Assembly: GCA_943736015.1 (NCBI GenBank)
Contig: OX031065.1
Span: forward strand, 3,603,501 to 3,667,500
DNA: 64,000 nucleotides
Source of the DNA: Tridacna crocea
Lineage: Eukaryota; Mollusca; Bivalvia; Cardiida; Cardiidae
Direction of reading: 5' to 3'
In this document: in pieces, positions 6,253 through 59,700 of the stretch
How positions within the stretch are numbered: position 1 is the stretch's first letter
How the letters are laid out: each line of letters opens with the position of its first letter
The notes under the pieces: generated by a model
What the model saw: the letters and a program-made list of their open reading frames with translations, nothing else
What the model was told of the DNA's origin: nothing
Databases searched by the model: none
Position numbers and translations under genes: made by a program

Positions 6253-6262
6253 CAACTGTCTA

Positions 6263-7790: not shown

Positions 7791-8008
7791 TTAACCCTGT
7801 ACTAAATAATCCCTGGTTTTTACGACCCTGAGATAGAAGCCTTTTGAAAACATTGTAGGAAAAGGATAAAATGGTGTAACCAGCATTTTCTCCTTTTTTC
7901 CACAATGTTTTCTACCCTGCTGGAAACAAATAAGCTACGTTTATTTCTCGTATGCAATTACTTTTAATTTGGACCAGTCTAAAATTCTATCGTTTGGTAA
8001 AGAGTTAA
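7791..8008 (+). mobile_element. piggyBac-like MITE
   Basis: TTAA ends, a diverged left hairpin arm, and the standard right half. Confidence 0.75.
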
Positions 8009-8162
8009 AACCTGTAATTGACAATTGAGAATCAGAAAAACCTAATAATCAGTGTTGCTTCTAGGATTTTCCAAAATGGGGCCCCGGGGCCCCCTCACTT
8101 CCAAAAAAGGGGCCCCTTACTCATGAAAGGGGGCCTCAAATTTGCATTGTTCTTTTTGTGTC

Positions 8163-8461: not shown

Positions 8462-9295
8462 ACACAGACTGCACTGCATACCATTCTCCGTATTTTCAAG
8501 CCACGGCCATTCGGTCAGCCAGGAATCTTGAAACAGTTTCGTCTTTTTCTGTTTGCTTGATCCATCATTATTTTGGCCTTGTGTCGAATTTTCTATTGTC
8601 AGATTCATTAATCACATTAACACTACCATTATTTCCTTCAGAAACCGTCGGTGGTTCCTCGGCACTATGTACAGTCAGTTGCCTTACCGAAGTTAAAATC
8701 AAATAATGTCCGCTTCATTTCATTTTTTGAAAATTCGTACGATAGAACTCAACAGTCTTGAACAAGATCAATGACGCATGAGGTCAAGGTTATCATATCA
8801 TAATACGAAGACGGTGATTGGCTGAAAATGAAGCTAAATCAACTTTCAAACCAACCGCTGTCCTCGATACACAATAATGGCGGATAGCTTCATAGTATGG
8901 TGGCACACCGATCTTTTTTTAGCCTGGCGCACCTGACGGCGAAAATTGCGGGAAGCTATGTAATCGTGCGGCATGAGGGGCGCACACCAATGATTTTTTT
9001 GCGCCAATCCTTTAATTTTCGCGGGATTCCCGCAATCCCGCGTCCTAGAAGCAACACTGATAATAAGCAATAAATGATTCCTGACAGTACTGAATGAATG
9101 TGAAGGACATTTAAAGGTCGGGATAAGAGACCCATTGTAATGGTTTCAAAGCTGTTTTCACAAGAATATCAAACACATCATTAGACACTATAGATAAAAA
9201 TTCAAACTACATGTACTGTGCAGTCAGATCCTTATCCACACTGCATGCAAAAGCATCTCAAGCTCTACTTTGCAGTCTAAGAGATGCATCTTCAA

Positions 9296-9836
9296 TTAGC
9301 TAATCAGCACAAAAAATCCACATCTGTTAGATAATTTGGACAAAGAATCAGCATCTATAAATCAACCAGGACAAAGAATCAGTATCTATTAGCCAATCAG
9401 GACAAAGAGTCAACATCTATTAACCAACCAGGATAAAGAATCAGTATCTATTAGCCAATCAGGACAAAGAATCAGTATCTAAGAATTGGTTTCTATTAGC
9501 CTATCAGGACAAAGAATCAGAATCTATTAGCCAATCCGGACAAAGAATCAATATCTATTAATCAACCAAGACAAAGAATCAGTATCTGTTAGCCAATCAG
9601 GACAAAAAATCAGCATCTATAAATCAACCAGGACAAAGAATCAGTATCTTCTAGTCTATCAGGACAAAGAATCAGCATCTCTTAATAGTCAATCAGGCCA
9701 AAGAATCAACTCCTATTAGCCAACCAGGACAAAAAACCAAAAAAATAGCTAATCATGACAAAGAAGCTGCTTCCATTAGCCAATCAGGACAAAGAACCAC
9801 CATCTATTAGCCAATAAGGGCAAAAAATCAGCTTAC
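9296..9836. repeat. 31-bp minisatellite, about 17 units
   Basis: The unit is close to TTAGCCAATCAGGACAAAGA plus ATCAGTATCTA, with many point differences. The last unit runs into the splice donor of exon 9837-9953. Confidence 0.85.
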
Positions 9837-42246: not shown

Positions 42247-43776
42247 TCACAGCAGTCGGACCACAGTAACAAAGTTATCTAATGGCGACCCGTGATGGCT
42301 GATATATAATTTGTCTCTGTAACAACACAGAGCGTAGGGATCCTTTATATACCCTGCAGTCTGATCTAACACCGACTTGTATCGAGTCAGATCAGAATCC
42401 AGTTTATAAACTTTGTTGTCTGACATTCCACACACATAGACGTTGTTATCTGGGTCTACACTGATTCCTTGAGGCCTCGACCCTTTTATTGTAATTTGTG
42501 AGACCACTTGCCCCTCAACATTTCTACAATGTACTTTGTTAGTTTCCCAATCGGTCAACAAGACTCGTCCAGAAACAACGGCGAGAAAAGGAAGATAGAT
42601 ATCTGGGTCTACACTGATTCCTGCAGGCATCGACCCTTTCATTTCAATATGTGAGACCACTTGACCCTCAACATTTCTATATTGTATTTCGATATCCCGA
42701 TCGGTTAACCAGACTCGTCCAGAAACATCCCGAACGGTGATACGAAGACCAAAGATATCAGTGTCAATTTTGTTTAGCGTCTCTCCGTCTGTAGAGAGTA
42801 TATAAACATACCTGGGAGAGTCACGACGAACTTCTCCACAGACGGTAAAAATCTTGTCATCATAAAACTGTATATCGTAACATTGTTCCTCGGTTTTGAT
42901 GACTTTTTGGGGTTTTGCGGGTTCTTTACTTAAATCTATGAACATTATTTGACGTTTCCCTGGTAACGTTACTGCTATCAAACATTGTTTATTCGGATCA
43001 GCTCGGTCTGTGGCAGAAATATCAGAACTACTGCCGGACACTAAGTTCGGTTCAGTAGAATTCTGTTTTAAATGTATTTCTGTAACATCTTGAGGTCTAG
43101 ACTCTACAAACCGTATATAACGTTGTAACACGTGACTTCCTACTTTAAATATTTTAATACAATAATTAGAATAATCACAGACTATCAACCTTTTGTTCTC
43201 CAGTCCACACAATCCAGATATCCCACAATCCCACCGATCCAATTCGTGTTTTATTTCAACCCGATCACATACAATGGCGCGGCGGCTGAAGAAATTATCT
43301 TTTCTCTGTCTTTCACTCTCATTCATAACATTGGCAATATACTTCCTTCTCATTCTCTCTTTCTTCTCTCTCTCTCTCTCCGCTGTCTGAAACCCTTTCT
43401 TTATTCTCGCCAAAAATCCTTTTTTCTCACTCTCCTCTCTCCTCACTTTCATCCCTTCATGACCTCCATGTTTAGACAGACATTCAACACAAACATACAT
43501 TTTACACACAAAACAGAGAAACACCGCCACTCTCTCATACAACTTTCTCGCACGCTCACGCCACTCAGACCTCGAAACCTCACGCCACGGACACTCATCT
43601 CGCTTACAGCTTTCGCACTTGGCTCCTTTTCTAACATTATCATTTACACTTAATTCTTTCAACTGCATATATAATTCTTCTTCTTCTTCTTCCTCTTTTC
43701 CTCTCTGTTCTTCCCTCAATTCAACAAAGCTGTTTTCACCACCCTCGGCCATGTTATAACTGTATCTTGTCTGCAA
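42247..43776 (-). CDS. Single-exon B-box-like / NHL-repeat protein
   Basis: An intact 509-codon frame. The second Met (MAEGGENSF, start at 43752) is the likelier start because its context AACATGG is strong. After an acidic Glu run come nine zinc-ligand candidates (C54, C57, C62, C88, C91, C96, C99, H103, H106) resembling a B-box, then a Lys/Arg/Glu-rich coiled coil (about 111-160), then NHL-type beta-propeller repeats to the end (motifs such as ISVDPDNNVYVCG). This is the plan of the TRIM2/3/71-like proteins much expanded in bivalves, but no RING is present, so E3 ligase activity is not supported. Two adjacent blocks, about 153 bp apart around 42498 and 42651, are near-copies: an in-frame internal duplication. 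It could be a ligand-binding or RNA-binding propeller protein; the substrate is unknown. Confidence 0.8.
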   Translation of the reverse strand: MQTRYSYNMAEGGENSFVELREEQRGKEEEEEEELYMQLKELSVNDNVRKGAKCESCKRDECPWREVSRSEWRERARKLYERVAVFLCFVCKMYVCVECLSKHGGHEGMKVRREESEKKGFLARIKKGFQTAEREREKKERMRRKYIANVMNESERQRKDNFFSRRAIVCDRVEIKHELDRWDCGISGLCGLENKRLIVCDYSNYCIKIFKVGSHVLQRYIRFVESRPQDVTEIHLKQNSTEPNLVSGSSSDISATDRADPNKQCLIAVTLPGKRQIMFIDLSKEPAKPQKVIKTEEQCYDIQFYDDKIFTVCGEVRRDSPRYVYILSTDGETLNKIDTDIFGLRITVRDVSGRVWLTDRDIEIQYRNVEGQVVSHIEMKGSMPAGISVDPDIYLPFLAVVSGRVLLTDWETNKVHCRNVEGQVVSQITIKGSRPQGISVDPDNNVYVCGMSDNKVYKLDSDLTRYKSVLDQTAGYIKDPYALCCYRDKLYISHHGSPLDNFVTVVRLL

Positions 43777-44079
43777 TAGATTTAGATCTTTCAGTTAATT
43801 AGAATTATTACTTTATAAAACAATACTGCATTTTAACGAACCTAAAGAAAGGGGTTTTGGAAAACATTGAGGAAAAAGGAGAATATGCTGGCAACCAGCA
43901 TTTTCACCTTTTCCCACAATGTTTTCTCGCTTTTCAAAGAAAGATGCCGTTATTTTAAGAACATCTTATTTATCAAGATGCAGATACTTTCAGTTTTCTA
44001 GCTTTTTTGTATTAAGAGTGGATAGATCCATTAAGATCAGGAAATTACAAAGGAATGCTTTTAACATCCGATCACTGTT

Positions 44080-44744: not shown

Positions 44745-45241
44745 TGACAGTTTTATTAATTAACCCTTTACCAAACAATCTCTGGTTTTTACGAACCTGA
44801 AAAAGAAGCCTTCTGAAAACATTACATTGTGAGAAAATGCTTGTAACCAGCATTTTCTCCTTTTTCCTACAATGTTTTCTACCCTGCTGGAAACAAATAT
44901 CAATGTTTGGGTTACGTTTACTTTGCCGCCTCCTTGAACGTGATTGGCTAAAAGTAAGCGCAGACGCTCACGCCACTGAACTTTTGACCAATCACGTTCA
45001 AGGATTTCTGTATTGGTCGCTGGTCATCAATATTGATACGAGGTCAACTGTATTGATCGGAGGTCAAGTCGTATTAAGCCGGGGTCACGACCTGTGTTCT
45101 ACTATACGAAATCAGAAATGTGACTGGTATTGGGTGGACCGGTTTCCATGTATAACTTCTATATATCCAATAGTTAATTAATAATAATCAATAAGTTTGT
45201 TTAAGACAATAATCCAAACTCTACTGTAATGTCGCCTTTAA

Positions 45242-45454
45242 CACACTGATCAACGTGAGCCGCGGACACCATGTGTTCTCGGTACACCAGATCGGTTTTT
45301 CCATGGAAGAACCGGAGATGGTGTAAGTATTTTCATTTTTATGGACCTGGTTAACCTAGATAGAAATGTTGATTTACAGCAATGTCAAGACGAATGATTG
45401 ATCTGTTTACACACATACTAGGGAATAATAATACCATCATATAAGCGAGCTGTG
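45242..45454 (+). repeat. Left arm, outer part, of a large inverted duplication
   Basis: It matches the complement of 55995-56212 almost perfectly. The Gypsy element then interrupts the arm, which resumes at 54213. Total arm length without the insertion is about 775 bp. Confidence 0.9.
45303..45322 (+). CDS. Putative small gene, left copy, exon 1
   Basis: ATGGAAGAACCGGAGATGGT followed by a GTAAGT donor. It joins to 54433 in frame to give MEEPEMV then VCTWTPDQKK. The intron contains the whole Gypsy element. No homology is recognised and there is no expression evidence. Confidence 0.35.
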
Positions 45455-45459
45455 GCTTT

Positions 45460-45680
45460 AAAGTGTGCCGAGTTATTATTTTGGGGCGATACCTGTCCTT
45501 TAGTGGCTGTAAATACTTGTGAAGGTGCTAACTTCTGTATTTCTTTATCTTCTGACTTCGTGAACGTCTACACAGTAGTTAGTCAGGTGAGAGAGTGAAC
45601 AAAGAGAAATACTGGTTCCCTATATCAATTTTACCCGCCACTCTGGTTTCCCAGTGACACTGGTACCCAGCGTCACTACA
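45460..45680 (-). repeat. Gypsy 3' LTR
   Basis: 221 bp, apparently identical to the 5' LTR at 53987-54207. Confidence 0.92.
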
Positions 45681-45690
45681 CTCCCCCCGA
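45681..45690 (-). promoter_or_regulatory. Gypsy polypurine tract
   Basis: In element sense the bases just before the 3' LTR are purine-rich (CGGGGGGAG), the expected plus-strand primer site. Confidence 0.75.
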
Positions 45691-46997
45691 CTTTCTCCAA
45701 GAAGGCTTCGGCGGTAGCTGACGGAATCTTTATTTGGAGGGTTACTCCCAAAGTGGGGTGGAAACCTTTCCCTAGGTCACAACTCAAATACCCGGGGCTA
45801 GAAGCCGCTGAAATTTGCCCCTAAGTGGGCTAGAAGCCGCACGAGAATTTTAAAGCTAGAAGCTTTTGGGTTAGTAGGCTAGAAGCCGCACAAGACCCTT
45901 AAAGCTAGCAGCTTTTGAATAAGTGGGCTAGAAGCCGCACAAATACTGGAAAACAACAAGCTAGACTGAAACTAGTAAAGGAGAAAGGAGCTAGAAGCTC
46001 TATTTCACTGGGCTAGAAGCCGCAAAGAAAATCTGGTCAATCTCCCTAGTTTCCTTGGCGTATCATACGACAACACACTAACTTATCCTGGGTTACAGAC
46101 CAGTACTTTAGTAAGTATAGGAGAGAATTCCTCCACCAGAATGCAATTGGCTAAAAGCCAAACTGAGAAGACAGCATCCGGCCCAGCCACAGGGAGACAA
46201 TAATAGCCTCTTATTGCAGCCGGTCTTCCCGCCACCACTCCAAGGCCTCAACCTGATCTAGACTAAAAGCCCTGATCGTGTTGGTGAAGCCTAAGAAGGA
46301 ATTGGGAAACTCCTTCAGCCATCCATCTACCACACACTGGTTTCCGGTGAAGCAGTGTGGATGGATCCTTTGGCGAGGCCTAACATACCACCGCGTAAAA
46401 CGCAGAAGTTTGAGAAAAGCCTCAATTCCGCAGTCCTCATCCACTTTTGTGCAATGCAACACCTGAACTTGCCACTTTCAGCAAGGGCATAACTCTCTCC
46501 AGCAACACTAGTTAACCGTACGTGAGGACGTCCTAGTCAACCCGTGCTACTGAGTGCGTCGCAGCTACACCAAGTCAGCGGGCTCTTAGGGGAGCTAGAA
46601 GCCCCAGCCATAGAGGCCGACTTACTTGCAAACACCTGAAGTTTGCGGGCTCTTCGGGGAGCTAGAAGCCCCAGCCTTAGAGGCCGACTTATAACTTCTG
46701 TTTTATTAGCTTGTTTTCTTCTTACCTCCCCCCTCTCCCCCTTTATTGGAGCCGCCTCTCCGGGGGCCCTCCCGGGGCTGGAGACAGTGGGACTAAACCC
46801 GACTGGAGTGAAAGGTAAAAAGTTCCGACGGAGCGGGTTAATCTTTTGGCAAGGCCTTGACCTGGCTGAAGGATAGGCTAGAAGCCACATCCTTGGATAC
46901 ACCTACACAGAAAGACAGGCTAGAAGCCGCATCTTCCTATCCTGTAGGTTACCCTGGAGTCGGAGATAATTTGCTGATGTTTTATACTGACAAATAA
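45691..46997 (-). other. Gypsy 3' noncoding region rich in CTAGAAG motifs
   Basis: 1.3 kb between pol and the 3' LTR with no credible gene. Eleven exact CTAGAAG copies lie on the plus strand (45798, 45830, 45856, 45879, 45928, 45991, 46013, 46595, 46662, 46878, 46920), most within palindromes such as AAAGCT-AGA-AGCTTT. Short open frames here are not supported as env. Confidence 0.75.
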
Positions 46998-49900
46998 TCA
47001 GTATGCTACATCCACAGTTCCTCCACTCTTGCAGGCCTTACACTTATATTTGTCAATAGCTAATGCATCTGATACACTGATATTGACGCATGAGCCATGG
47101 AACCACTCATCACAATAGTCACACTGTATCATGAAGCGACCATTCCAGGGCTGGCGACACAAGCAATACTTGGTGCCTTCCTCACTGTCAGGAATGATTG
47201 CTGAATCCTGAGGTAGGGATTTGTGCTTTGTGATCCAATTTGGGAGAGTCCTATCCCTACAGGGCATTAGCCTGTCATGGTTCACTACGAACACAGACTT
47301 ATGGAGCTTCACACGATATACGTATGAAGACAGTTTCTTTATTATTATGGCTGGTCCCTTCCAAGGAGATGACAGTTTTCTGGACTGTCCCTTACTAACT
47401 GCTGTATCTAATAGATACACAACATCTCCTTCAGCATATGGCCGTAAAAGAATTTTCAGATCATAATTCTTTTTCATGCGCTTCAGTGAAGTTTTCAGAT
47501 TCTGGCGAGCGGTGTCATGAGCCGATTGCATGTTTTTAACCAGGTCATTGACATACTCGCCATAATCCACAGACTTACTTTTGGGACAAGGGAACATCAA
47601 ATTTGCTGGTGTATTGATCTCCCGTCCCAACATCAATCTATTCGGGGTAAAACCCGTACTTCTGTTTACTGAAGCCCTTATTGCCATAGCTATTTGCTGG
47701 AGGTACTTGTCCCATTGATCCTGTTTTTTACCTAAAAAGCATCGGACAGCATCCATTAAAGTACGATTAAATCGTTCTACCTGTCCGTTGGCTGCAGGTC
47801 GATAAGGAGTGGTTCTAGCCTTATGGATCTGCAAAGCTTTGCATAAAGCTTCAAAAAGTTTTCCGTCAAAGTTCCTGCCTTGATCGGAGAAAATCTGTAG
47901 TGGTAGACCAAAACGCGAAAAAAAGTTATCAATGGCCGCCTGAGCCGTTTCCTCCGCGCGCTGAGAAGGCAAAGGGACACATTCAACCCATTTCGTAAAC
48001 TGGTCCACCATCATTAGGCAGTGAACATTACCAAGCTTTGTTTTAGGTAAAGGACCAATAAAATCTATATGTACCCGCTCCATAGGTACCCCAGCTTGAA
48101 ATTCTGTTAATGGGACCTTTCCATAAGCCTTGTTCTTTTTGCTCTGGTTACAGACATTGCAAGATAGCACATAGGACTCCACATCCTTTGACATACGAAA
48201 CCAGAAAAACTTTTCTTTGAGTTTTGCCTTTGTCCTAGCGACACCTTGATGCCCCGCTGAGGGTATATCATGGTGCAAGGACAAGACAGACTCTTTTAGA
48301 CTTTCGGGGACGACTAGAAGCCAGTCACCCATGTCTTCATCTGGTTTTTGTCTATATAAGACACCATCTATAAGTTTGAACAACTCTTTATCCAGCCAGT
48401 AACTTTTTGCCCCAACGCTGGCAATAAACAAATCTTTTTCAGCTGGTTCTTCCTTTTTCTCGATCCAAGCTAGAAGCATGGCGAGATTTTTGTCTTTATG
48501 TTGCTCGTCTCGCAGTTCACCGAGTGAATAGCCCCAGCACGTTCTTGTGGTGGTACTGGTAGCCAAATCACTCAGGGAGACGGTGCAACACCCTATTTTG
48601 CTCAAACTTCTTTCCTTACGGAAAGTTATGTCAAAGTGTGCTTCTGTACTACCTAACCCGTCAATGTCTCCAGAACCAATGACGTCTAGAAGACGGTCAT
48701 TGCCTGTAAATCTGACTGCGTCTAGAAGACGGCGGTCTTTACAGGGAGCGTCGTCTGTCGGCTGGTCTAGAAGACCCGAGCCTAGACTGCTCTTTATGCC
48801 TGGATGCTGCCCTGAATGGTCTAGAAGACCCGATTCAGTCTGCAGCTTTTTCGCAGTACAAGATCTTTCTGAAAAAATCTGGCGGACTCCCACTGACCTG
48901 GCCTCGCCCCTTCTTGCACCTACCACTTTTCGGTTAACCTCTGTCAGAGGTGCCTTCCCTTCCTGCACGACCAGACTAACAGCCTCGTCCACCTCGTCAG
49001 TGAACTTAGCCCACTGGGTATGCGCCCTCGTGCAGTAATGGCATCCTCCGCATGGTAGGTCCGCAAGCTTGATGCCAGAAATGTACTTTAAGCATGGACT
49101 TAAAGGATCTGGGATCCTTGAAAGTGCGTCCGCATTTCCATGCTTTGATCCTTCTCGATGTTTGACCACCATGTGGTATTGAGAAAGTTCCTCAATCCAT
49201 CGAGCTAGCTGGCCCTGCGGTTCTTTGAACCTTAATAACCAGGTTAAACTGGAGTGGTCTGTCCTTACTGTAAAGATCTTACCAAGCAGATAGAACCTGA
49301 ACTGTCTAGTAAACCTCACAATGGCCAACAACTCCCTCCGGGTGGTGCAATAATTCTGTTGCTCAGGAGTCAGAGAAAAACTGCTAAAAGCAATCACCTT
49401 CTCGACCCCATTCTGCAACTGAATCAACTCAGCGCCTATGGCAAACTGAGATGCATCCACATCCAAAATGAAGGTATCATTGACGTTCGGTAAAGCTAGA
49501 ACAGGTGGACTTGTAAGTACTGCTTTTAACTTTTCAAAAGCACCCTGATGCTCTTCACCCCATGTAAAGGGTTTTCCCCCTGTCAGTTTGTACAGAGGAC
49601 AAGCGATCTCTGCAAAATCTTTTACGAACATTCTATGGTAATTAGCTAACCCCAGAAACCGTTCGACATCTTTAGAATTTTTGGGCGTTGGCCAATTTCT
49701 AACAGTTTCTGTATCTTTTTCTGTCATGGATAAAGAGTTTCCAATTACAGATCTGCCCAGAAACTCCACTTCATTTTGAAAGAAGAGGCATTTCTTAGGC
49801 TTTAGCTTCATACCATGTGTTCTGAATCTATCCAGGACTTGACATAGATTTTGCAAGTGCTCTTCAAAAGTTTTTCCCATTACAAGAATGTCATCTAAAA

Positions 49901-51140
49901 AGGCAAGTACAATCTTCCAGGTCAGTCCCTTCAGTATGAAGTTGACAACCCGGGAGAATGTGGCAGGTGCATTGGTCAGACCAAAACCCATCTTTAAGTG
50001 TTCAAAGAGTCCGAACTTGGTAAGAAAAGCTGTTTTCTTACGATCTTCCTCTTTGACCTTAACTTGCCAATAAGCAGAATTTGCACCTAGTTTAGAAAAC
50101 CAGATGTTTCCTGCCAGCGTGTCAAGACAATCTTCAACTAGTGGTAATGGGAATGTGTCTTTCACTGTGACGTCATTCAAAGCTCGGTAGTCTATGCACC
50201 ACCGAACTGAGCCATCCCTTTTCCTGATTAAAACAGGAGAAGAAGCCCATTCAGACACAGATTCCTGAATGACGCCTGCATCCAACATTTTCTTCAGGTG
50301 AGCTTCTTCCTCATCAACAAAACACGCAGGTGTTCTACGCATTCTTTGTTTGATAGGCTTAGCGTCACCTGTATCAATTGCATGCTCTATAGCTGTGAAT
50401 TGACCAAGGTCAAACTCACTTTGAGCAAAGACATCGGCATAGCTACGTAGAACGCCAGCTAATTTCGATTCTTGCTCTGCATTTAGGTGCGTTCTGGATG
50501 CCTCAAACACACCTTGCAAATGCAATGGTAATTCCACAGCTATATTGCTCTCACCTTTGTGGCTAGAAGCCACAAGATTCACTGATCCGTGACCCTGGGG
50601 TTTTCCCGTTGAGCTAGAAGCCGCAACAGGCCTAAACCCCTTACTGAATTCAGTTGGGCTAGAAGCCGCAACTGACCTTGACATATGGCGTAAATTAGTT
50701 GGGCTAGAAGCCGCAACAGACCTTTTTCCATGATTACGTATTGTTGGGCTAGAAGCCGCAACACTACTAGACCCTGATATGGAAGATTGGCTAGAAGCCA
50801 TTCTTTCATCTGCACTGTGCATGTCCCCTAAAACAGTGTCAATTTCGTGTGCATTCGCAATAATTTCATTCTTTTTCAATGTTTTGAAATTATCGGTGGG
50901 GTTAACCAGACAGATGATCGGTCTATCACCGACAGATCTGACAATACAAGGCATTAGTACCTTTCTTTGGTGTATCAGATCACCAGGTTCTAGATAATAA
51001 TCACCCAGCTGGTCGTCCAATTTACATGCAACACGAACGACAGAATTGGGAGGGACCACCACCCTTTTTGTCAAAGACTCCCTAGCCACAACAGGTTTTT
51101 TATCTTGCAAATAACATGTCGTCTGAAATAGGGGCGACAT
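46998..51140 (-). CDS. pol: Gypsy Pol: RT, RNase H, integrase, PHD finger
   Basis: 1380 codons. Order: an N-terminal region with five or more VAASSP-type repeats (about residues 113-196); reverse transcriptase (about 255-440; FLDD catalytic box near 414-417); RNase H (DVDASQ, TRRELLAIV, TDHSSL, GNADALSR); a linker with LLD repeats; integrase with the HHCC zinc region (HHDIPSAGHQG, CNVCNQ) and DDE core (HIDFIGPLP, FSDQGRNF, NGQVERFNRTL); then a C-terminal PHD finger (about 1325-1372, starting YCLCRQPWNGRF). In RT motif A the usual Asp is Gly (SKLGANSAYWQ, residue 352, codon GGT at 50085-50087), which should abolish polymerase activity. The N-terminus joins the protease through one in-frame stop. 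Confidence 0.93.
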   Translation of the reverse strand: MSPLFQTTCYLQDKKPVVARESLTKRVVVPPNSVVRVACKLDDQLGDYYLEPGDLIHQRKVLMPCIVRSVGDRPIICLVNPTDNFKTLKKNEIIANAHEIDTVLGDMHSADERMASSQSSISGSSSVAASSPTIRNHGKRSVAASSPTNLRHMSRSVAASSPTEFSKGFRPVAASSSTGKPQGHGSVNLVASSHKGESNIAVELPLHLQGVFEASRTHLNAEQESKLAGVLRSYADVFAQSEFDLGQFTAIEHAIDTGDAKPIKQRMRRTPACFVDEEEAHLKKMLDAGVIQESVSEWASSPVLIRKRDGSVRWCIDYRALNDVTVKDTFPLPLVEDCLDTLAGNIWFSKLGANSAYWQVKVKEEDRKKTAFLTKFGLFEHLKMGFGLTNAPATFSRVVNFILKGLTWKIVLAFLDDILVMGKTFEEHLQNLCQVLDRFRTHGMKLKPKKCLFFQNEVEFLGRSVIGNSLSMTEKDTETVRNWPTPKNSKDVERFLGLANYHRMFVKDFAEIACPLYKLTGGKPFTWGEEHQGAFEKLKAVLTSPPVLALPNVNDTFILDVDASQFAIGAELIQLQNGVEKVIAFSSFSLTPEQQNYCTTRRELLAIVRFTRQFRFYLLGKIFTVRTDHSSLTWLLRFKEPQGQLARWIEELSQYHMVVKHREGSKHGNADALSRIPDPLSPCLKYISGIKLADLPCGGCHYCTRAHTQWAKFTDEVDEAVSLVVQEGKAPLTEVNRKVVGARRGEARSVGVRQIFSERSCTAKKLQTESGLLDHSGQHPGIKSSLGSGLLDQPTDDAPCKDRRLLDAVRFTGNDRLLDVIGSGDIDGLGSTEAHFDITFRKERSLSKIGCCTVSLSDLATSTTTRTCWGYSLGELRDEQHKDKNLAMLLAWIEKKEEPAEKDLFIASVGAKSYWLDKELFKLIDGVLYRQKPDEDMGDWLLVVPESLKESVLSLHHDIPSAGHQGVARTKAKLKEKFFWFRMSKDVESYVLSCNVCNQSKKNKAYGKVPLTEFQAGVPMERVHIDFIGPLPKTKLGNVHCLMMVDQFTKWVECVPLPSQRAEETAQAAIDNFFSRFGLPLQIFSDQGRNFDGKLFEALCKALQIHKARTTPYRPAANGQVERFNRTLMDAVRCFLGKKQDQWDKYLQQIAMAIRASVNRSTGFTPNRLMLGREINTPANLMFPCPKSKSVDYGEYVNDLVKNMQSAHDTARQNLKTSLKRMKKNYDLKILLRPYAEGDVVYLLDTAVSKGQSRKLSSPWKGPAIIIKKLSSYVYRVKLHKSVFVVNHDRLMPCRDRTLPNWITKHKSLPQDSAIIPDSEEGTKYCLCRQPWNGRFMIQCDYCDEWFHGSCVNISVSDALAIDKYKCKACKSGGTVDVAY

Positions 51141-51158
51141 AAAGTCTTTCCCTAATTA

Positions 51159-51589
51159 TTGAGAGCCAAGACATATCTGCACAGGTTTAAATATGAAACC
51201 TGGTAAAATGTTGTCCCTATCCGCCATCTGCATCACGATATCCTTGATCTTTTTAGGTTTTTGTTTCAAGGTATCGTAAACCTGCTTGGAAAGAATAGAA
51301 ATTTCCGCTCCCGAGTCAATCCTAGCCTGAATATCTCTCCCCCCGACTTTCAAATTGATGAAAGAAGAGCCTGCACAAACAATGTGAACCTTAACTGGCT
51401 CGTCCTTAAAGGTAGGAGGATTAGGATTGATAATGGTCGCAGTATTACTACTCCCTTTAGTCTGGTTAGAAACCGAGACCGACTCAGAAGTCAGGTTAGA
51501 AACCGTGACCTTCGACTGAGTTTGACCACTTTTAAATGTTTCTTTGACAGAGGACTGAGGGGCGTGGTCCTTGACCTCAGTCCTTACCC
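51159..51589 (-). CDS. pro: Gypsy protease region of Pol (5' part, ends at an in-frame stop)
   Basis: Frame entered by the -1 slip. It carries a Ser/Thr-rich linker, then INLKVGGRDIQARIDSGAE, whose D-S-G-A is the aspartic protease active-site motif, and ends CLGSQ followed by TAA at 51156-51158. The next codons continue in the same frame into the RT open frame, so the TAA looks like a single nonsense change rather than a designed end. Confidence 0.8.
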
Positions 51590-53155
51590 ATTTAAATTCT
51601 GCTGGTTTTCTTTGTTTTTCTTCTGTAACCAGGCCTTGTACCTCTTACAATCTTTTTTGTAATGGCCAGCCTTTTTACAGAAGAAACAATGATCACCTGG
51701 TTTGGCCTTTCTTTTTTCTTTTTCCGACTTAATTGCTTCAGCAACGACCTTTTTGACTTCATCCAGGGTTATCTGATTGATGGACACTTGATCTGTAGAT
51801 TTTTTACTCTTTTTCTGTCCATCAACAGCCCTGGTAATGTATTGGTGGTGTTTCACCAAATTCAAGGCCTGCTGAATACTTTTAGGGTTTTCAAGGCAAG
51901 CATGTTTAGCTGCTTCCTTGTCCAAACAACCCTGACTAAATCTAGCAACAGCCTCCTGAATTCTGTGACTTTCAGGTAAGTCTTTGTAGGCTGAAGTAGC
52001 AAGGGACATGACCCTATCTGCCCAGTCTTCTAAAGTTTCCTCTGGATGTTGAGAGGCTTGCTGGAAGTTGACTCGAGCAGTTTCAATTAAGTCAATGGAG
52101 CCAAACCTACTTTCAAGTTTTTTGAGCATTTCCTTGAAAGTAAATTCTTCATCCATCCTAAATGTGATGGTGAAGAAGTCTAGAGCCTTTCCTTCTAGAC
52201 TCCAAGTCAAATAATCCTTGCATTCCTGCTCTCCCCAGTTAGAAACCGACCTATAGCTCTCGAACATTTTTCTGAACGAGAACCAGCTCGTCTTGCCATT
52301 AAAATGTAGATTTTTTGGCAGCAGAGCTGGTTTCCCTCTTTTCAGAATGGCGGGTCTAGAAGACGCCTGCCTGTCCAAAGCTATTTTAGGTTTAGGAGAA
52401 CCAGAACTGGAACTTGAGGAAGACTCGTCCGGATAGAATCCAGTCGGTCTTCTGTTAACCCTCAACTTCCTGGACTTTTTGCTTGTGCTGGTGAGTCTCG
52501 GGATAGGCAGCTGAGCTAATTGTTCCTTAATGGTACTTGTTTTAGGAACCTGTTTCTCCAGATTCTCAAACTCCTGTGTGAGGGGCTTGAATCCTGGAGG
52601 GACACGCGGAGTAGCAGTGTGCACGGAAGATTGTCTAGAAGACATATCCACAGCAGCCGCTTGTCTAGAAGACAAGTCAAAAGTTGCCGGCTGCTGTGCC
52701 AGCGACTGCTGCAACTCCAACTGGGTCCTAATCAATCTCTGCAAGTCTTGAATTTGCTTGGCTGTCTGTTCTTGGAGGACTTGCAAAGTTACCATATCCA
52801 TCTGGGTTTTTAATGGGCTTTGCCTGGGTGCAGGCAAAGGTGATTTGGGTGGTTGCAGATGGAAAGTTGGTTTAGGCGGAGAAACCAACTTATGTAATTG
52901 CTCAGTCTGTGCAGAATGTTTAACGGGTTCAATTTTTTGCACAGAAGGTCTAGTTTGATGGGGTGGGGTTTGTAAAGTAGCAGCAGTCCTCGGAACTGTT
53001 GTAAATTCCGAAAACATTTGCTCCAAACCCTGGCTTTTAGTAGGCCGTATATCACTTTGTGATAAAAGCCTACGTAGCTGATCCTCAGTCTCACTTATTT
53101 GAGACTCAAGTTCAGCCCTTTCTGCCTCTAGTGCGGTTAAGGGAGGAAGTGGCAA
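51584..53155 (-). CDS. gag: Gypsy Gag polyprotein
   Basis: 523 residues. The N-terminus (MPLPPLTALEAERAELESQI) is coiled-coil-like. A Pro/Gln-rich linker follows, then a capsid-like helical region with WADRVMSLATSAYKDLP, then one CCHC zinc knuckle (CFFCKKAGHYKKDC) near the C-terminus. Gag forms the intracellular particle that packages the element RNA. Three copies of the CTTCTAG motif fall in this frame and encode Ser-Ser-Arg each time. A slippery heptamer lies a few bases before its stop. Confidence 0.92.
   Translation of the reverse strand: MPLPPLTALEAERAELESQISETEDQLRRLLSQSDIRPTKSQGLEQMFSEFTTVPRTAATLQTPPHQTRPSVQKIEPVKHSAQTEQLHKLVSPPKPTFHLQPPKSPLPAPRQSPLKTQMDMVTLQVLQEQTAKQIQDLQRLIRTQLELQQSLAQQPATFDLSSRQAAAVDMSSRQSSVHTATPRVPPGFKPLTQEFENLEKQVPKTSTIKEQLAQLPIPRLTSTSKKSRKLRVNRRPTGFYPDESSSSSSSGSPKPKIALDRQASSRPAILKRGKPALLPKNLHFNGKTSWFSFRKMFESYRSVSNWGEQECKDYLTWSLEGKALDFFTITFRMDEEFTFKEMLKKLESRFGSIDLIETARVNFQQASQHPEETLEDWADRVMSLATSAYKDLPESHRIQEAVARFSQGCLDKEAAKHACLENPKSIQQALNLVKHHQYITRAVDGQKKSKKSTDQVSINQITLDEVKKVVAEAIKSEKEKRKAKPGDHCFFCKKAGHYKKDCKRYKAWLQKKNKENQQNLNG
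51590..51596 (-). promoter_or_regulatory. Candidate -1 ribosomal frameshift site
   Basis: In element sense this is T TTA AAT in the gag frame, followed by GGG TAA. A -1 slip here reads TTT AAA TGG and enters the protease-pol frame, which is open from this point. It fits the X XXY YYZ pattern. No pseudoknot was worked out. Confidence 0.65.
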
Positions 53156-53970
53156 ACTCTTATCTGCCCTTTCTCTCTTAAGTTGTTTTCAGGAAGGAAC
53201 ACTGAAATCTAATTGATTTCAGGTTTCTTCCTCAACTGCCCCCATCATCATCATGGAGAACGCCATTTTAGTCACTGGACCATACATATCTCTATGGTAG
53301 ACAATGGCCTCTGCTCTTTTCTGGCCAATGCCTTTAATGCTGCAGAGTTGGTCAACAGTTGCAGTGTTGATGTTCATTCTGCTCATTTTTTCCAAAGAGA
53401 AATGAATACAGGCAATTTTTTGTGTTTAATAAAAAATTAAACAAAATGCAAAACCTGCAAGGAAAAAGCATGCAATTTAAACAACAAAGAAAGCAATAAC
53501 TGACAGTTAAATTCAAGTGCTTAGAAAGCGTACCTGAAAATAACAGAAAAACTTTCTAATTGTAAAACAGGTGGGTGGGGTAAGTACTGGCTTTACAGTA
53601 AAATGGGCGCTTCCTGCCTGTAAAGATTAAAATGGCATACCCTAACCTGATTTAAATTAGCCTTTCTTTCTTTTCTGTGTAGACCAAATTTGTAACTGAC
53701 ATGTGAAACCACCTCGGCTAGAAGCCAATTTAGGTAACACAAGAAAACTGGGACCAAACAAGTAGAACTCAATTTAGTCTTGAAGTCAAAAGTTGTATTG
53801 AATGAATAGAACTCAATTCAATACCCTTATCCACAACAGGTGCCTTGTTTTCAAATTGTTTTTCAAGCTAGAAGCCTGAGGGAGTCTTTTTTGGAATTTA
53901 TAGAAGGCTCGCGAAAACACAATACCAACAACCAAAAAGACTGGAAACAATCGAAAACTTTCTTGTTTTT
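53156..53970 (-). other. Gypsy 5' leader
   Basis: Untranslated region between the primer site and gag. It holds two copies of the dispersed CTAGAAG motif (53718, 53868). No other gene is seen. Confidence 0.7.
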
Positions 53971-53984
53971 AATCCTCGTCGCCA
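53971..53984 (-). promoter_or_regulatory. Gypsy primer binding site
   Basis: In element sense TGGCGACGAGGATT starts two bases after the 5' LTR. The TGG start pairs with the CCA end of a tRNA. I cannot name the tRNA with confidence. Confidence 0.7.
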
Positions 53985-53986
53985 AT

Positions 53987-54207
53987 AAAGTGTGCCGAGT
54001 TATTATTTTGGGGCGATACCTGTCCTTTAGTGGCTGTAAATACTTGTGAAGGTGCTAACTTCTGTATTTCTTTATCTTCTGACTTCGTGAACGTCTACAC
54101 AGTAGTTAGTCAGGTGAGAGAGTGAACAAAGAGAAATACTGGTTCCCTATATCAATTTTACCCGCCACTCTGGTTTCCCAGTGACACTGGTACCCAGCGT
54201 CACTACA
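53987..54207 (-). repeat. Gypsy 5' LTR
   Basis: 221 bp. In element sense it starts TGTAGTGACG and ends GGCACACTTT. The boundary is fixed by the duplicated target and the empty site, so the LTR end is TG...TT rather than the usual TG...CA. It appears identical to the 3' LTR. Confidence 0.92.
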
Positions 54208-54212
54208 GCTTT

Positions 54213-54768
54213 ATGAGCAACTGGGGTCTTATTGTTTTGAAGTTTGTTGCCGATTTTCGGACAAAATCCCCTAACCATTGTTCATTTTACAAGATTGTAT
54301 AATAAGATAAATATATTCCCTAAAGGAACACAAAATTTCACTTAAAAATGTCCACCCAAAGCGAAGATATACGTTTTTGAATGGACCTGGGTAGAGGAAA
54401 ATATGCTGACAAGACACCATTTTCATTTTCAGAGTATGTACATGGACACCAGATCAGAAAAAGCTTGTGGTAACTGGACACCAACCTTTAAATCATCAAT
54501 ATTTCTGCCTGAAACTCGATGCATGGGCTGTATACGAAGACTATTTTTGTAAACATTATGTCACTACGGTCCATTACCTGATAAAGAGCATGTTCAACGC
54601 AATTTCATTACTTGTAGCACTTGCTTTTTCGAAATATTTGCAATGTTACGGCAATTTACGAAGTAGACCTACGATGCTTGATCACAATTGACCGGTCATT
54701 GCCTCCAATGTTGGTGCAAGACATGTTCTTTTTTTACAGCGTTTCAATTTTATGAATGGCGTATAAAC
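54213..54768 (+). repeat. Left arm, inner part, of the inverted duplication
   Basis: It matches the complement of 55437-55990. The inner ends of both arms run into piggyBac-like terminal sequence (AACCCATTACCACGCAATCA against its complement at about 55410-55436), so the centre of the palindrome is itself flanked by MITE-type ends. Confidence 0.9.
54433..54691 (+). CDS. Putative small gene, left copy, exon 2
   Basis: Acceptor TTTCATTTTCAG; open frame to TGA at 54691, containing LVVTGHQPLNHQYFCLKLDA and a hydrophobic stretch near SLLVALAF. With exon 1 it gives 92 residues. The function is unknown. The exon may be longer or end earlier (a GTAAAC lies after EDYF). Confidence 0.35.
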
Positions 54769-55436
54769 CCATTACCACGCAATCACGAGCTTTAATATCC
54801 CTGGGAAAGATGGCTTCGAAAAACATTGTCTATAAAGAAAAAAACCCTATTAACTAGATCTAATACAGAGTGTACATTATTTACCACATTTGGTCTGATT
54901 CTTAGTTTAAACAACTTTCAAATCCGCTTGGCCAACTGCCAGCGGGATCTTAGAATGACGTTCTAGCCTTCGTACATTTGCATGCGTGCGTTTGTTCGTC
55001 TACGCGTTTATTTCTAAATTTTTTATTTAATTGACTTCTCCTCAGAAACCACCAAGTGGAAATCAACAAAATTCAACGTGGATGATTCCATAACTTTCTT
55101 TCGAGATACTTCGATCCTTTAATAAAGATGGCTTACATGTATGTGGAAGGAGCTTATTTTCCGTGTACGGCGCGTTGTGAAAATTGTAAAATTTGTCCTC
55201 TCAAAAGAACTCAATCACGAGATTGGCATTGGGTAGCTTTCTATCACATTCCTTCAATAAATTTTGATCTGCTGAAAAACATGGCATTTGTTGGTGGGAC
55301 TTATTTTCTCTTTGTGTCATAAAGCGGAAGTACTTGCAGCTCTTTAAATAAATTCATTGATAATACATGTATGTAGATCTACATGTATTTCATAACACAG
55401 ATTGCGTGAAAGCTCGTGATTGCGTGGTAATGGGTT
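54769..55436. other. Spacer of the inverted duplication
   Basis: About 670 bp. Its ends carry complementary piggyBac-like MITE termini (ATTACCACGCAATCACGAGC and its complement). The middle has one 64-codon frame (55128-55322) with four Cys in CTARCENCKICP and no recognised family; I do not call it a gene. Confidence 0.5.
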
Positions 55437-55510
55437 AATACGCCATTCATAGAACTGAAACGCTGTAAAAAAAGAACATGTCTTGCACCAACATTGGAGA
55501 TAATGACCGG

Positions 55511-55769
55511 TCAATTGTGATCAAGCATCGTAGGTCTACTTCGTAAATTGCCGTAACATTGCAAATATTTCGAAAAAGCAAGTGCTACAAGTAATGAAAT
55601 TGCGTTGAACATGCTCTTTATCAGGTAATGGACCGTAGTGACATAATGTTTACAAAAATAGTCTTCGTATACAGCCCATGCATCGAGTTTCAGGCAGAAA
55701 TATTGATGATTTAAAGGTTGGTGTCCAGTTACCACAAGCTTTTTCTGATCTGGTGTCCATGTACATACT
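55511..55769 (-). CDS. Putative small gene, right copy, exon 2
   Basis: Mirror of 54433-54691 with an identical translation from the Val-Thr-Gly-His segment to the stop. Confidence 0.35.
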
Positions 55770-56129
55770 CTGAAAATGAAAATGGTGTCTTGTCAGCATA
55801 TTTTCCTCTACCCAGGTCCATTCAAAAACGTATATCTTCGCTTTGGATGGACATTTCTACGTGAAATTTTGTGTTCCTTTAGGGAATACATTTATCTTAT
55901 CATACAAACTTGTAAAATGAACAATGGTTTGGGGATTTTGTCCGAAAATCGGCAACAAACTTCAAAACAATAAGACCCCAGTTGCTCATAAAGCCACAGC
56001 TCGCTTATATTATGATGGTATTATTATTCCCTAGCATGTGTGTAAACAGATCAATCATTCGTCTTGACATTGCTGTAAATCAACATTTCTATCTAGGTTA
56101 ATCAGGTCCATAAAAATGAAAATACTTAC

Positions 56130-56149
56130 ACCATCTCCGGTTCTTCCAT
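56130..56149 (-). CDS. Putative small gene, right copy, exon 1
   Basis: Mirror of 45303-45322 with the same start codon and GTAAGT donor. The intron here is only about 360 bp because no retrotransposon is inserted. Confidence 0.35.
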
Positions 56150-56746
56150 GGAAAATTCGATCTGGTGTACCGAGAACACATGGTGTCCACGGCTCACGTT
56201 GATCAGTGTGTGTAAGCTGTCGCTGTGGTAAAACTTAGATCAAGATTTAATCTAATAACTGTTGAAAGTTGCATTAAATTCCATTTAACAAACATTTGTC
56301 CATTATATTCTCTAGTTCTAGACTTAATGTTCGATATTTCTAAAAAAGAAAACCTGAAAAGAAGCAGATAACGTAGATCTAAGATCAGACTGCATTTTCT
56401 GTAGTCTGATCTTAATCCATACTCTTAGAAGCAATTTGAAAGATTCCATGAACAAAACACACGAAAAACTGTGCAAATCTCATTTATAAATAATAAAAAT
56501 ACCCAAATATGATCAAGGTTTCCAAGTTCTCTAGATACCTCCACACCTAAAGTTCTAAAGCAATAACTGCTAGAAATACACGGACATTGTAATGAAACGC
56601 TGGGACTGGAGACAAAAATTACGTCATAAGTATGACGTCAGTCTTGGAGGCGGCATCGACAATATTGCTCGACATAAATGAACCTTTTTCAGAGTGCTTT
56701 ATAACTTTCAATTAACTGATTTGTTTTCCTCATCGAAGTTGGCGAT

Positions 56747-59700
56747 GCACAAAACGTGCCGTGTAATAAGTAAGTTTCACTGCAAATGTCGGCATAGATA
56801 GCTTTTACAGACGGTGTGGATCAAGATCAGACTGCACAAAACGTGCCGTGTAATAAGTAAGTTTCACTGCCCATGCCGTCATAGATAGCTTTTACAGACG
56901 GTGGGGATCAAGATCAGACTGCACAAAACGTGCCGTGTAATAAGTAAGTTTTACTGCCCATGTAGATCTAGTCATAGACCGTCCAAAATCAGTTAAGTTG
57001 CGCCATTTACACTGTAATTTCGGCCATAATATTTGGAACACAAAATTTAATTCAACCTCGTTTTTTGTATGCTTTCAACCTTTTGATATACAGATTCGAT
57101 ACTTAGAGTGTTTGCATTGGATTTTTTTAAGCACAAAAATCAGACCCTATAGAAGTGGGTCAAAAACAGCCGTGAATTACGTTACAAAACCGCGACTTGA
57201 TACAATGAATATCTACTATGAACATGATAAAATATATTGCTTTTATGTGTAAATCTGAACACTGCATATGTGTCTTTAAAATGAACAAGCGTCAAATTTT
57301 GGTCATATATTGCATAATGAGAAAGCAGTATCTCTTTGATTTGAACATGTGATGAAATTTTTGGTTGCAAATCTTAATCGCATCGAATTCTAAGTAATAA
57401 AGTAATTGTCGTGGATCTGTGTGAAAGAAATTGACGATCATTTATAGCTTATTAGGAAGCTATGTTATCCTGCATTATATGAATGCTTACTTTGTATGGA
57501 TGAAAGCAACTATTTTACTGTGGTCGGCTTGTACTATGGAGTGGTAACTTGCAACGTAATTCACATATAGAAGAAAATTAAAATGAACTAATATTTAAGA
57601 AATGTACCTCCTTTCATTAAATTAAAAAAATCAAATTCTGTAAGAATATTGTAGAAAACTGAAAATAAATGGACCTTTAAAACTGTAAGAAATGAATAAT
57701 AACACTTTTGAGATTCAACAGCAGCAATTTGCGTCAGTTATAAATACAACTTCACAAACACTACTAAATGTACTATGTGCAGGGCATAAAAAGCGAATAA
57801 AATGCAAAAGTCTACTATTTCCTAATAGGCTATAGAATGTTCCAGTCATAAATAATAACCAAACATGAGCACAGACTGTTCACTATATGATGAAAATTTT
57901 GTAATGTAATTCAAGTCAAAGCTATAACGTAATTCACTTGTACTTCGGTGACTTTATTTATATGAAAACAAATCGAATTACTTTTAACCCTTTCCAAAAG
58001 AACAAATTTTAGACTCCTCCAAATTGAAAGCGTTTGCAGACGATAATTTCAAATTTGATAAAAATGGCAGAATTGTCTATAAAAGGGTAGAAAACACTAC
58101 GGGAGAAGGAGAAATTGATCGTTACGAGCAATTTCTCCTTTTCCAACAATGTTTTCAAAATACTTGTACTGCAGACACGTAAAAACCAGGGCTTGTTTGG
58201 GAAAGGGTTAACTAGCTCTTTACCAAACAACAAAATTTAAGACCAGTCCAATTTGAAAGACTTTGCAGACGACAAAATGAATCTGACTTATAAAATGAAT
58301 TTGGTTATAGGAAGAGTAGAAAACAGTGTGGGAAAAGGAGAAAATGCTGGTTACCTGCATTTTCTCCTTTTCCCGGACTGTGTTCAAAGAGCCTCTTTGT
58401 CAGGGTCGTTAAAAGTCGGGATTGTAAAGAATTAAAGAAACTCAGTGTAACACAAACTGTCTCTCGTCAATTATTGTTTACTTTTTATAGGCCACACAAC
58501 TGCTCAATGTTGTTAATTTCTTCCTGTCGGAATTTGAATATGTTTTCCAAATGCGAATTGGTTAGTTTACAGCCATTAATATAGCGTCGGCTGTTATCCA
58601 GACTGTGTCTGGCTTACCGGGCCACTTGAAGGACTTTTTTTTTTGCATCAACCACGGACGATACAAAGTATTCTTGGTCACAAGGGTCATAGTGAAAGAA
58701 AGTGAATTACGTTACAGTTTTTGTGAATTACGTTATCATATAATTCATACATCACATTCAAATATATCTCTTTAATTTCTTTAATTCAGACAAGATAGAA
58801 GAATACAAATGTCAATCTTAAAAATCGAACATCACACATGTTGTGAGCAGGGATACACACTAATTTGTTGTGAGCAGGGATACACACTAATTAAATGATA
58901 TAAACCAATAATCCGTACTGTGCAATAAAGTATTCACATCCACCAAGGTCAAAAAAAGATAAACAGCACCAGTAAATGACGTTTACATATGATGTAACTA
59001 TGAGGTCAGTTTTTATACCGAAATTAACTCCTGTATTTGAACAGTTTGGTGTTTCGTTCAGGTAATCCTACATTCAGTGTATCGTAATTCACTGTAACGT
59101 AATTCACCCCAACGTCTAAAATGCAATTTGAATCCTTATTACTTAACACAGATACATTATATCTTGACATATCAGAGAGGCGGATATGGTCTACCCATAT
59201 TGGTATTTAATTTCCTTTCCCATGTTTAGTATCTTAAAAAACATGTGTAACGTAATTCACTAAAAATGTGAAAAATTGAAAATTCTAATTTGAATAAAGT
59301 GTGGTTTATTTCTTTTTACGGTAAACCAGAAACATTATTCTAGCTGTTAAATATGATGCTTATAGAAAGAGAAAAAATATGTTTTGTGCACTACCTTTCG
59401 TATTTCATTTCAATGCAGTGGTCTTACTTTGTGTAACGTAATTCACTATGATTTAAGGGACAGTAAACCGACAAAAATATAAAAAGAACTAACAAATTAC
59501 AAGCTTTATTTCGACTTTTTGCCTCATTGTTTGGCATTTACGAATAAAATGAACTGTACCTTATTCATACTATGTGGTTTATGTTTGTGCAATATTTTTC
59601 CGTTAATATAACCTTTTGTTTGTGACATGGCTTTTTGTTAGTATATGTCTACAATCAGCTTCAAATTTTCAAATTCAAAGTGTTCAGATCTTGGATTTGT

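Follow-up and report, generated by a model that had tools for sequence, protein, structure and literature searches.

Dispersed packaging signals are known from RNA viruses. In parechovirus, many stem-loops with GxU loops lie along the genomic RNA and are read by the capsid protein, and a simple search for a repeating motif cannot find them (PMC5431903). Hepatitis B virus carries stem-loops with RGAG loops along its genomic RNA, with the capsid protein as reader. Semliki Forest virus has many capsid sites along its genomic RNA (PMC7499256). For the long terminal repeat (LTR) retrotransposons Ty1 and Ty3, the cis RNA signals are thought to be recognised by Gag and lie toward the RNA ends, and the consulted portion of the source describes no repeated hairpin (PMC4974528). 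We found no comparable hairpin array in an LTR retrotransposon in the open-licence literature, as judged by titles and the openings of abstracts. Here we describe a hairpin array in a Ty3/Gypsy-type LTR retrotransposon of Tridacna crocea. The window is the whole stretch of 64,000 nucleotides (nt) that was analysed (contig OX031065.1, positions 3,603,501 to 3,667,500), and all coordinates refer to it unless a related element is named. The element lies on the minus strand and contains 28 copies of a 7-nt motif, CTAGAAG as read on the plus strand. These 28 sites very probably form a selected array of hairpins in the sense RNA.

Other systems resemble this array in part. The Su(Hw) insulator of Drosophila gypsy is an array of a short repeated motif read by a host factor. 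Coat-protein operators carry a near-fixed tip on a free stem, often with a one-sided bulge, the usual anatomy of a protein ligand. As a general rule, the constitutive decay element (CDE) read by Roquin has a triloop with a purine in the middle. The CDE of Tnf has the loop UGU (PMC5603727). The LIN41/TRIM71 response element (LRE) is a triloop hairpin with a U-A closing pair as a key feature and several copies per RNA, and LIN41 prefers a purine at loop position III (PMC5908797). The iron responsive element (IRE) consists of an apical three-base loop, an upper helix, a single 5' bulged C and a lower helix (PMC8466369).

The T. crocea array shares with the dispersed packaging signals its multiple stem-loops (28 here) with a common loop motif along a genomic RNA. 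Unlike them, it has a nearly exact 7-nt tip and is carried by an LTR retrotransposon, and its capsid reader is a proposal. Like the LRE, the tip reads as a triloop with a U-A closing pair, but loop position III is U and the C-G pair below the closing pair is nearly fixed. The UCU, UUU and UAU tips have no purine at loop position III, and identity with the LRE was rejected. Identity with the CDE was also rejected, since 69 of the 73 CTTCTAG, CTTTTAG and CTTATAG tips have C or U as the middle base. The IRE shares the three-base apical loop, upper helix, 5' bulged C and lower helix. It differs in its apical AGU (UCU or UUU here) and in having 5 bp in the upper helix together with a cross-loop pair, where our hairpins usually have 4 bp above the bulge; only part of our sites have the bulge. 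Loop and helix length, together with the lack of an Rfam match at gathering scores, exclude IRE identity. The Su(Hw) array likewise repeats a short motif many times inside a Gypsy element, but it is a DNA-protein array in one place, whereas the sites here are dispersed RNA hairpins with covarying stems.

Number, pairing and strand of the motif sites

The initial annotation listed 28 exact CTAGAAG on the plus strand, and all of them (28/28) were found at the listed positions. The interval 45459-54207 contains 28 forward copies and one reverse copy (52192). The claimed strand specificity holds, with one reverse copy where essentially none had been reported. The whole window contains 37 motifs on both strands, compared with a mean of 6.71 (standard deviation, sd, 2.56; maximum 14) in 100 dinucleotide shuffles, which rules out a chance origin of the count. 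Scaled from these shuffles, fewer than 0.5 motif per strand is expected inside the element, in line with the earlier estimate of well under one.

The minus strand encodes the element, so the motif reads CUUCUAG in its RNA and the hairpin tip is CU[UCU]AG, with a UCU loop and not an AGA loop. Sites occur in the leader, gag, pol and the 3' region, and none occur in the LTRs. The same 7-mer is translated as SSR, ASS and LLD, three peptides in two frames. The coding sequence contains 15 copies, compared with a mean of 1.33 (maximum 5) in 500 synonymous-codon shuffles, so density exceeds the codon-shuffled control. CTT-CTA encodes 6 of the 13 Leu-Leu pairs. The three peptides in two frames and the excess under synonymous shuffling rule out peptide-driven repeats. 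They support the earlier proposal that the signal resides in the nucleic acid and not in the peptide.

Part of the 28 sites are local duplicates. They comprise a pol array of 45 nt, a 3'-region array of 49 nt and a duplicated pair at 46595/46662. Judged by their 6-nt flanks, 24 of the 28 sites are distinct.

The flanks of the motif pair with each other. The first flanking position is paired in 24/24 distinct window sites and the second in 23/24. Pairing runs (Watson-Crick and G-U) scored 71 in the window element, against 31.8 (sd 5.8) in a cross-paired control in which the same flanks were dealt out among sites (0/5000). Three sister elements, L193, L194 and L195 (the sister clade), scored 78 against 22.4 (sd 6.5; 0/5000). 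This test left out L193 site 94 and sites with duplicate 6-nt flanks, which reduced 28 sites to 24 and 37 to 20, and it still included two L194 sites inside a foreign insertion. A stem of at least 5 bp, bulges counted, is present in 25/28 window sites.

The stems covary. The alignment contained 40 sites (24 from the window, 14 from L193 and 2 from L194) and excluded four window near-duplicates, 11/13 L194 sites and all 10 L195 sites. Its covariation score was 0.507, compared with 0.156 (sd 0.024) in shuffles (0/500) and at most 0.160 in slid controls. Paired cells made up 87.5% versus 67.5%, and double-change cells numbered 55 versus 18.0. Changes on both sides were seen at 4/6 stem pairs, and one pair showed six standard pair types. 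The pairing and covariation that the initial annotation saw in the flanks are real; the loop it gave as AGA is UCU or UUU on the minus strand, and many stems carry a 5' bulge.

The third stem position is unpaired in 12/28 window sites. The one-base 5' bulge is a C in 11 of these 12. Skipping it gains 3 to 6 pairs in ten sites and 1 or 2 in two, with the run below the bulge counted up to 6. The 11 unique sites have 44 pairs below the bulge versus 24.4 when cross-paired (0/5000), and in the window element the bulge usually lies 4 bp below the triloop. Across the 24 distinct window sites, a 5' bulge gives 58 distal pairs versus 18.0 (0/3000), and in the sister clade 32 versus 10.1 (0/3000). A 3' bulge gives no clear excess of distal pairs in the window element (11 versus 11.2) or the sister clade (7 versus 5.3). 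A 1x1 mismatch gives 11 versus 14.1 in the window element.

An A-C pair on the sense strand is the counterpart of a G-U pair on the other strand. Stem positions 1-4 in the 42 unique sites comprised 118 Watson-Crick, 19 G-U, 3 A-C and 28 other combinations. Cross-pairing predicts 63.5, 23.4, 15.5 and 65.7, respectively. The 19:3 split between G-U and A-C departs from the expected share (binomial p = 0.008), and the observed difference of G-U minus A-C was reached in 1.8% of shuffles. G-U is tolerated and A-C is not, and the structure is therefore kept in the sense RNA. This asymmetry and the bulge excess on one side only disfavour a DNA palindrome or cruciform. In 127-nt folds, the first stem pair of the window sites has a mean probability of 0.85 (sense) and 0.74 (antisense). 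The corresponding values are 0.65/0.49 in L193, 0.64/0.41 in L194 and 0.61/0.42 in L195, with several sites near zero.

Tips with at least three further pairs were counted in the four elements, with homologous sites of the three sister copies taken separately. CTTCTAG occurred 47 times, CTTTTAG 22, TTTCTAA 6, TTGCAAA 5 and CTTATAG 4, and every other tip at most 3 times. The tip, strand and bulge counts dropped duplicates after three sites had been removed: L193 site 94, which belongs to a window-family outer copy, and sites 5578 and 6151 of L194. The counts suggest a tip consensus YUUYUAR, in which U-A closes a U-Y-U triloop and C-G or U-A follows. Three further pairs are present at 15/28 CTTCTAG sites in the window element, 13/15 in L193, 10/13 in L194 and 9/10 in L195. 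As a control, only 48/925 CTTCTAG sites (5%) had them in at least 120 viral-contig stretches matching a triple pattern, 11 of which had at least two paired sites. The strongest control stretch, a viral contig read on its reverse strand (L004), has three further pairs at 3/3 CTTCTAG sites; this may be chance.

Variation among copies was scored by column. The search of the T. crocea genome (1.05 Gb, 31 contigs) for LTR matches of at least 97% identity scored 40 out of 128 candidates. Counting the window copy, each side was aligned from 14 copies and the pol array from 21. The window copy served to define the sites, so changes private to it were not counted; the unplaced loci L149 and L153 were excluded. 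In the 3' region, 0/77 tip columns were variable, compared with 2/58 stem, 24/184 near-flank and 221/1161 background columns. Among 1479 circular shifts of the mask, 3 were as low for tips, 35 for stems and 1 for both. Tip columns were variable at 1/28 in the 5' region (392/1479 shifts as low) and at 5/42 in the pol array (119/360 shifts as low).

Related elements and origin of the array

The 167-amino-acid (aa) reverse transcriptase (RT) gave 152 matches in its own genome, from 150 scored of 2407 candidates. Seven divergent relatives (L189-L195) were read. The sister elements have RT identities of 88% (L193), 90% (L194) and 87% (L195) and contain 15, 13 and 10 sense motifs, with no antisense motif in any of them. 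One L193 site belongs to an outer element that hosts L193 in its leader, and two L194 sites fall in an apparent foreign insertion. With the outer copy left out, blastn aligned parts of gag and pol only, at ~67-74% identity. The leader, 3' region and spacers of the sister elements gave no BLAST alignment to the window element, yet these elements keep the motif, for the most part at different positions. L193 (~234-9144) itself interrupts the 5' leader of a window-family copy, whose split sequence resumes on the far side.

The other four relatives, with RT identities of 80% (L189), 70% (L190), 67% (L191) and 68% (L192), have no array. Their sense/antisense motif counts are 1/1, 0/0, 2/1 and 0/2, and no hairpin tip is enriched in them. 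The initial annotation had named motif-free relatives as a point against function; such relatives exist, and the sister elements are not among them. Among the elements read, only one young lineage has the array.

Counterparts were found for 5 of the 15 coding sites. The sites at 52635 (gag) and 50749 (pol) read CTTCTAG at the same L194 column. At 48686, 48470 and 48314 the aligned L193 codons carry CTTTTAG, and L189 has neither tip there. The other 10 have no counterpart when gag and the pol N-terminal part are compared with L194 and the pol C-terminal part with L193. At the three aligned sites, UCU/UUU is the sole tip difference between the lineages. The UUU loops at L193 5670, 5898 and 6057 and at window position 46151 correspond to a C-to-U change of UCU, and deamination of the looped C is a possible source. 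In the sister copies, SSR sites lie in 11- and 15-residue gag repeats, which the window gag does not have.

The tree joins the window element, L193-L195 and P0238, a protein record, at support 100/97 and places the motif-free L189 outside, and the array was therefore probably gained recently, on the branch to this clade. After the gain, sites probably moved in part and changed stems while the tip was kept. Alternatively, the array may have been lost in the line of L189, since 8/17 inner branches of the tree are left open.

Three relatives are protein records only. P0238, grouped with the sister clade, has the ASS peptide. P0239, placed with modest support (81/75) as the sister of the motif clade, has no such peptide cluster. 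P0001 keeps two gag SSR motifs. Protein searches of viral-contig and genome-contig collections found no relatives. The named gag relatives are bivalve, except for one record filed under a bacterial metagenome-assembled genome. Several gag homologues (P0006, P0007, P0008, P0078, P0091 and similar records) contain long tandem TSS runs with 13- or 18-residue spacing. The run in P0006 lies between the gag zinc knuckle and the protease. These runs could hide another nucleic-acid array. L189 contains a 635-aa open frame with a TatD DNase domain (7595-9499) directly 3' of its pol frame, either a neighbour or a captured gene.

Structure and surroundings of the element

The element was described as a Gypsy element of 8.7 kb, and its structure bears this out (Table 1). 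It occupies 45459-54207 (8,749 nt) and is flanked at both ends by a 4-bp target-site duplication, GCTT. Its two 222-nt LTRs are 100% identical. The gene order is gag followed by protease, RT, RNase H and integrase, as in Ty3/Gypsy, with protease matches below curated cut-offs. The primer-binding site matches the 3' end of what we take to be tRNA-Ser(GCU). The PHD finger at the pol C-terminus is also precomputed for many listed relatives, some of them named mollusc or echinoderm.

The element sits in one arm of a long inverted repeat. One arm comprises 45241-45458 and 54208-54793, and the other 55409-56211. The arms are ~800 nt long and 96-98% complementary, with a 615-nt spacer, and they share a 93-aa open frame without a Pfam match. 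The repeat is possibly a foldback or terminal-inverted-repeat DNA transposon. Nearby, a 515-aa minus-strand open frame (42247-43794) encodes a TRIM-like protein with NHL repeats and a B-box (below cut-off). An 87-bp tandem repeat of ~2.5 copies lies at 56746-56963. The window contains no tRNA genes and no Rfam families at gathering scores.

Table 1. Coordinates of the hairpin tips and other features of the element (stem lengths in bp; P, predicted probability)
Feature	Position	Strand	Basis or remark
5' LTR, 222 nt	53986..54207	-	LTR identity; genomic flanks ..GCTT / GCTT..
Primer-binding site TGGCGACGAGGAT	53972..53984	-	1 nt beyond 5' LTR
Tip, 5' leader	53868..53874	-	7 bp
Tip, 5' leader	53718..53724	-	6 bp
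gag open frame	51584..53188	-	PNMA-type capsid, E 1.2e-9; CCHC zinc knuckle by eye
Tip, gag (SSR)	52665..52671	-	7 bp + bulge + 3
Tip, gag (SSR)	52635..52641	-	5 bp + bulge + 4; aligned L194 site
Tip, gag (SSR)	52356..52362	-	weak, 4 bp + bulged C + 2
Aspartic protease open frame	51156..51644	-	weak Pfam matches below curated cut-offs
pol open frame (RT, RNase H, integrase)	46998..51155	-	domain matches
Tip, pol N-terminus (ASS)	50791..50797	-	5 bp
Tip, pol array (ASS)	50749..50755	-	4 bp + bulged C + 5; aligned L194 site
Tip, pol array (ASS)	50704..50710	-	4 bp + bulged C + 4
Tip, pol array (ASS)	50659..50665	-	4 bp + bulged C + 7
Tip, pol array (ASS)	50614..50620	-	4 bp + bulged C + 7
Tip, pol array (ASS)	50563..50569	-	8 bp
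Tip, RNase H-integrase linker (LLD)	48821..48827	-	5 bp
Tip, RNase H-integrase linker (LLD)	48767..48773	-	5 bp
Tip, RNase H-integrase linker (LLD)	48722..48728	-	5 bp
Tip, RNase H-integrase linker (LLD)	48686..48692	-	5 bp + bulged C + 6; L193 aligned codons CTTTTAG
Tip, integrase N-terminal part (LLA)	48470..48476	-	weak, 3 bp; L193 aligned codons CTTTTAG
Tip, integrase N-terminal part (LLV)	48314..48320	-	5 bp incl. G-U; L193 aligned codons CTTTTAG
PHD finger, pol C-terminus	47031..47165	-	Pfam PF00628, E 7.1e-9
Tip, 3' of pol	46920..46926	-	4 bp + bulged C + 9
Tip, 3' of pol	46878..46884	-	4 bp + bulged U + 7
Tip, 3' of pol	46662..46668	-	6 bp
Tip, 3' of pol	46595..46601	-	6 bp, duplicate of 46662
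Variant tip CTTTTAG, loop UUU	46151..46157	-	6 bp
Tip, 3' array	46013..46019	-	4 bp + bulged C + 3
Tip, 3' array	45991..45997	-	5 bp
Tip, 3' array	45928..45934	-	4 bp + bulged C + 3
Variant tip CTGCTAG, loop GCU	45905..45911	-	6 bp
Tip, 3' array	45879..45885	-	4 bp + bulged C + 3
Tip, 3' array	45856..45862	-	6 bp; P 0.00 in 127-nt context
Tip, 3' array	45830..45836	-	4 bp + bulged C + 3; P 0.14 in context
Tip, 3' array	45798..45804	-	weak, 4 bp
Likely polypurine tract, purine-rich stretch adjoining 3' LTR	45681..45692	-	by inspection
3' LTR, 222 nt	45459..45680	-	identity to other LTR

Possible readers of the array

The sequence itself establishes how many sites there are, on which strand they lie, that their flanks pair and covary, that a bulge recurs, that positions have partly turned over, that the array is confined to one lineage among the elements read, and that variation in the 3' region is low. 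We infer that a protein reads the tip, that this protein is Gag and that packaging is the outcome. A selected array of protein-binding hairpins, most likely dispersed Gag or assembly sites, is the reading that we tentatively favour. The hairpin tip would be read by a sequence- and shape-specific RNA-binding protein. The tip is near-fixed and the stem is free in sequence, with its pairing kept and often one 5' bulged base. By binding the full-length RNA at many dispersed sites, Gag, with its capsid and zinc knuckle, would select, compact and package it. In unconstrained spacers new copies would arise through local duplication, elsewhere through point changes, and once gained they would be retained.

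A protein reader is favoured because a near-fixed tip, free stems and often a one-sided bulge are the usual anatomy of protein ligands, the IRE and LRE included. A reader of many weak sites, such as Gag, is favoured because the sites lie in the leader, gag, pol and 3' region, outside the LTRs, and also because the more distant elements do without them. By analogy, such internal, non-LTR sites resemble the dispersed packaging signals of RNA viruses and would fit Gag.

Several observations weigh against this reading. Many sites are not independent, through local duplication. The stems at 48470, 52356 and 45798 are weak, 45856 is not predicted to form in context, and 4/10 L195 sites have a predicted probability below 0.1. 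At several sites the antisense strand folds equally well or better. In the sister clade, 1x1 mismatches also exceed the control (19 versus 9.6; 42/3000), and the bulge excess rests on 5/18 sites with at least 3 pairs. Low variation is significant in the 3' region alone; the 5' region and the pol array lean the same way. Even in the 3' region, one stem pair is broken (A-U to A-A) in 6/14 copies, and one site is missing from one copy. L189-L192 have the same gene order and lack the array, so packaging does not generally require it. Ty3 carries its cis signals at the ends of its RNA, and nt 429-4979 can be dispensed with in trans (PMC4974528).

The main rival to Gag is a recruited host RNA-binding protein, such as LIN41/TRIM71 or Roquin, acting in export, stability, translation or escape from silencing. 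The triloop, the U-A closing pair and several weak sites acting together fit host-read ligands, and sites cluster in the 3' region, where constraint is strongest. The B-box/NHL gene in the window is a matter of neighbourhood only. The loop bases speak against the two named proteins: U stands where LIN41 prefers a purine, and C or U takes the middle place of the G in the Tnf CDE. Fifteen sites lie inside gag and pol. Among those listed of 373 genome-wide clusters, the few judged foreign to this family had the look of plain tandem repeats, though no dedicated search for a host regulon was made. We regard a host reader as unlikely.

A functionless mini-palindrome that is selfish or spreads mechanically, by slippage or template switching in reverse transcription, is less plausible still, and we consider it improbable. 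It would account for the 45- and 49-nt tandem arrays and the duplicated pairs, and in this respect the spreading mini-repeat raised in the initial annotation explains local copy number. The clusters lie mostly in variable spacers, the more distant relatives lack the array, and constraint is not significant in two of the three regions. As the whole story it is disfavoured: the sites have the tip in common and not the stem, and the stems covary, with up to 6 standard pair types per position. G-U is kept and A-C is not, the bulge excess is confined to the 5' side, and the 3'-region tips are invariant among copies. The sites at 48470 and 48314 also stand in aligned integrase codons, with CTTTTAG in L193 and neither tip in the motif-free L189.

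That the array serves an RNA function of the element in which Gag takes no part is very improbable; it could be control of reverse transcription or strand transfer, compaction, dimerisation, or imitation of a U34/A37 tRNA anticodon arm. The tips CU-UCU-AG, CU-UUU-AG and CU-UAU-AG look like Arg, Lys and Ile anticodon loops, the letters fit C32-U33-NNN-A37 in what we take to be the standard numbering, and the commonest CU..AG loops (UCU, UUU and UAU) are all UNU, but any CU...AG hairpin resembles an anticodon loop, which makes the match weak, a C-G at 32/38 would close the loop, and the likely primer, presumably tRNA-Ser, has a different anticodon.

If the reader is Gag, dispersed packaging signals, already known in RNA viruses, would here be carried by an LTR retrotransposon. 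In RNA viruses such signals are degenerate, whereas here a nearly exact, covarying array is visible in the plain sequence. It occurs in one lineage, is absent from more distant relatives in the same genome and has partly turned over in position. The repeats SSR, ASS and LLD also show a demand at the RNA level shaping protein sequence. If a host protein reads the array instead, it would have a YUUYUAR triloop specificity unmatched by the two triloop readers compared, LIN41 and Roquin. With Gag as the reader, the acquisition of multi-site assembly signals by an RNA genome would become directly testable. It is possible, though doubtful, that one LTR-retrotransposon lineage recently invented and amplified its own RNA address code. 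This code might consist of dozens of U-Y-U triloop hairpins, placed where the protein tolerates them and read by Gag. If so, the gain, turnover and maintenance of an address code would be traceable between copies in one genome.

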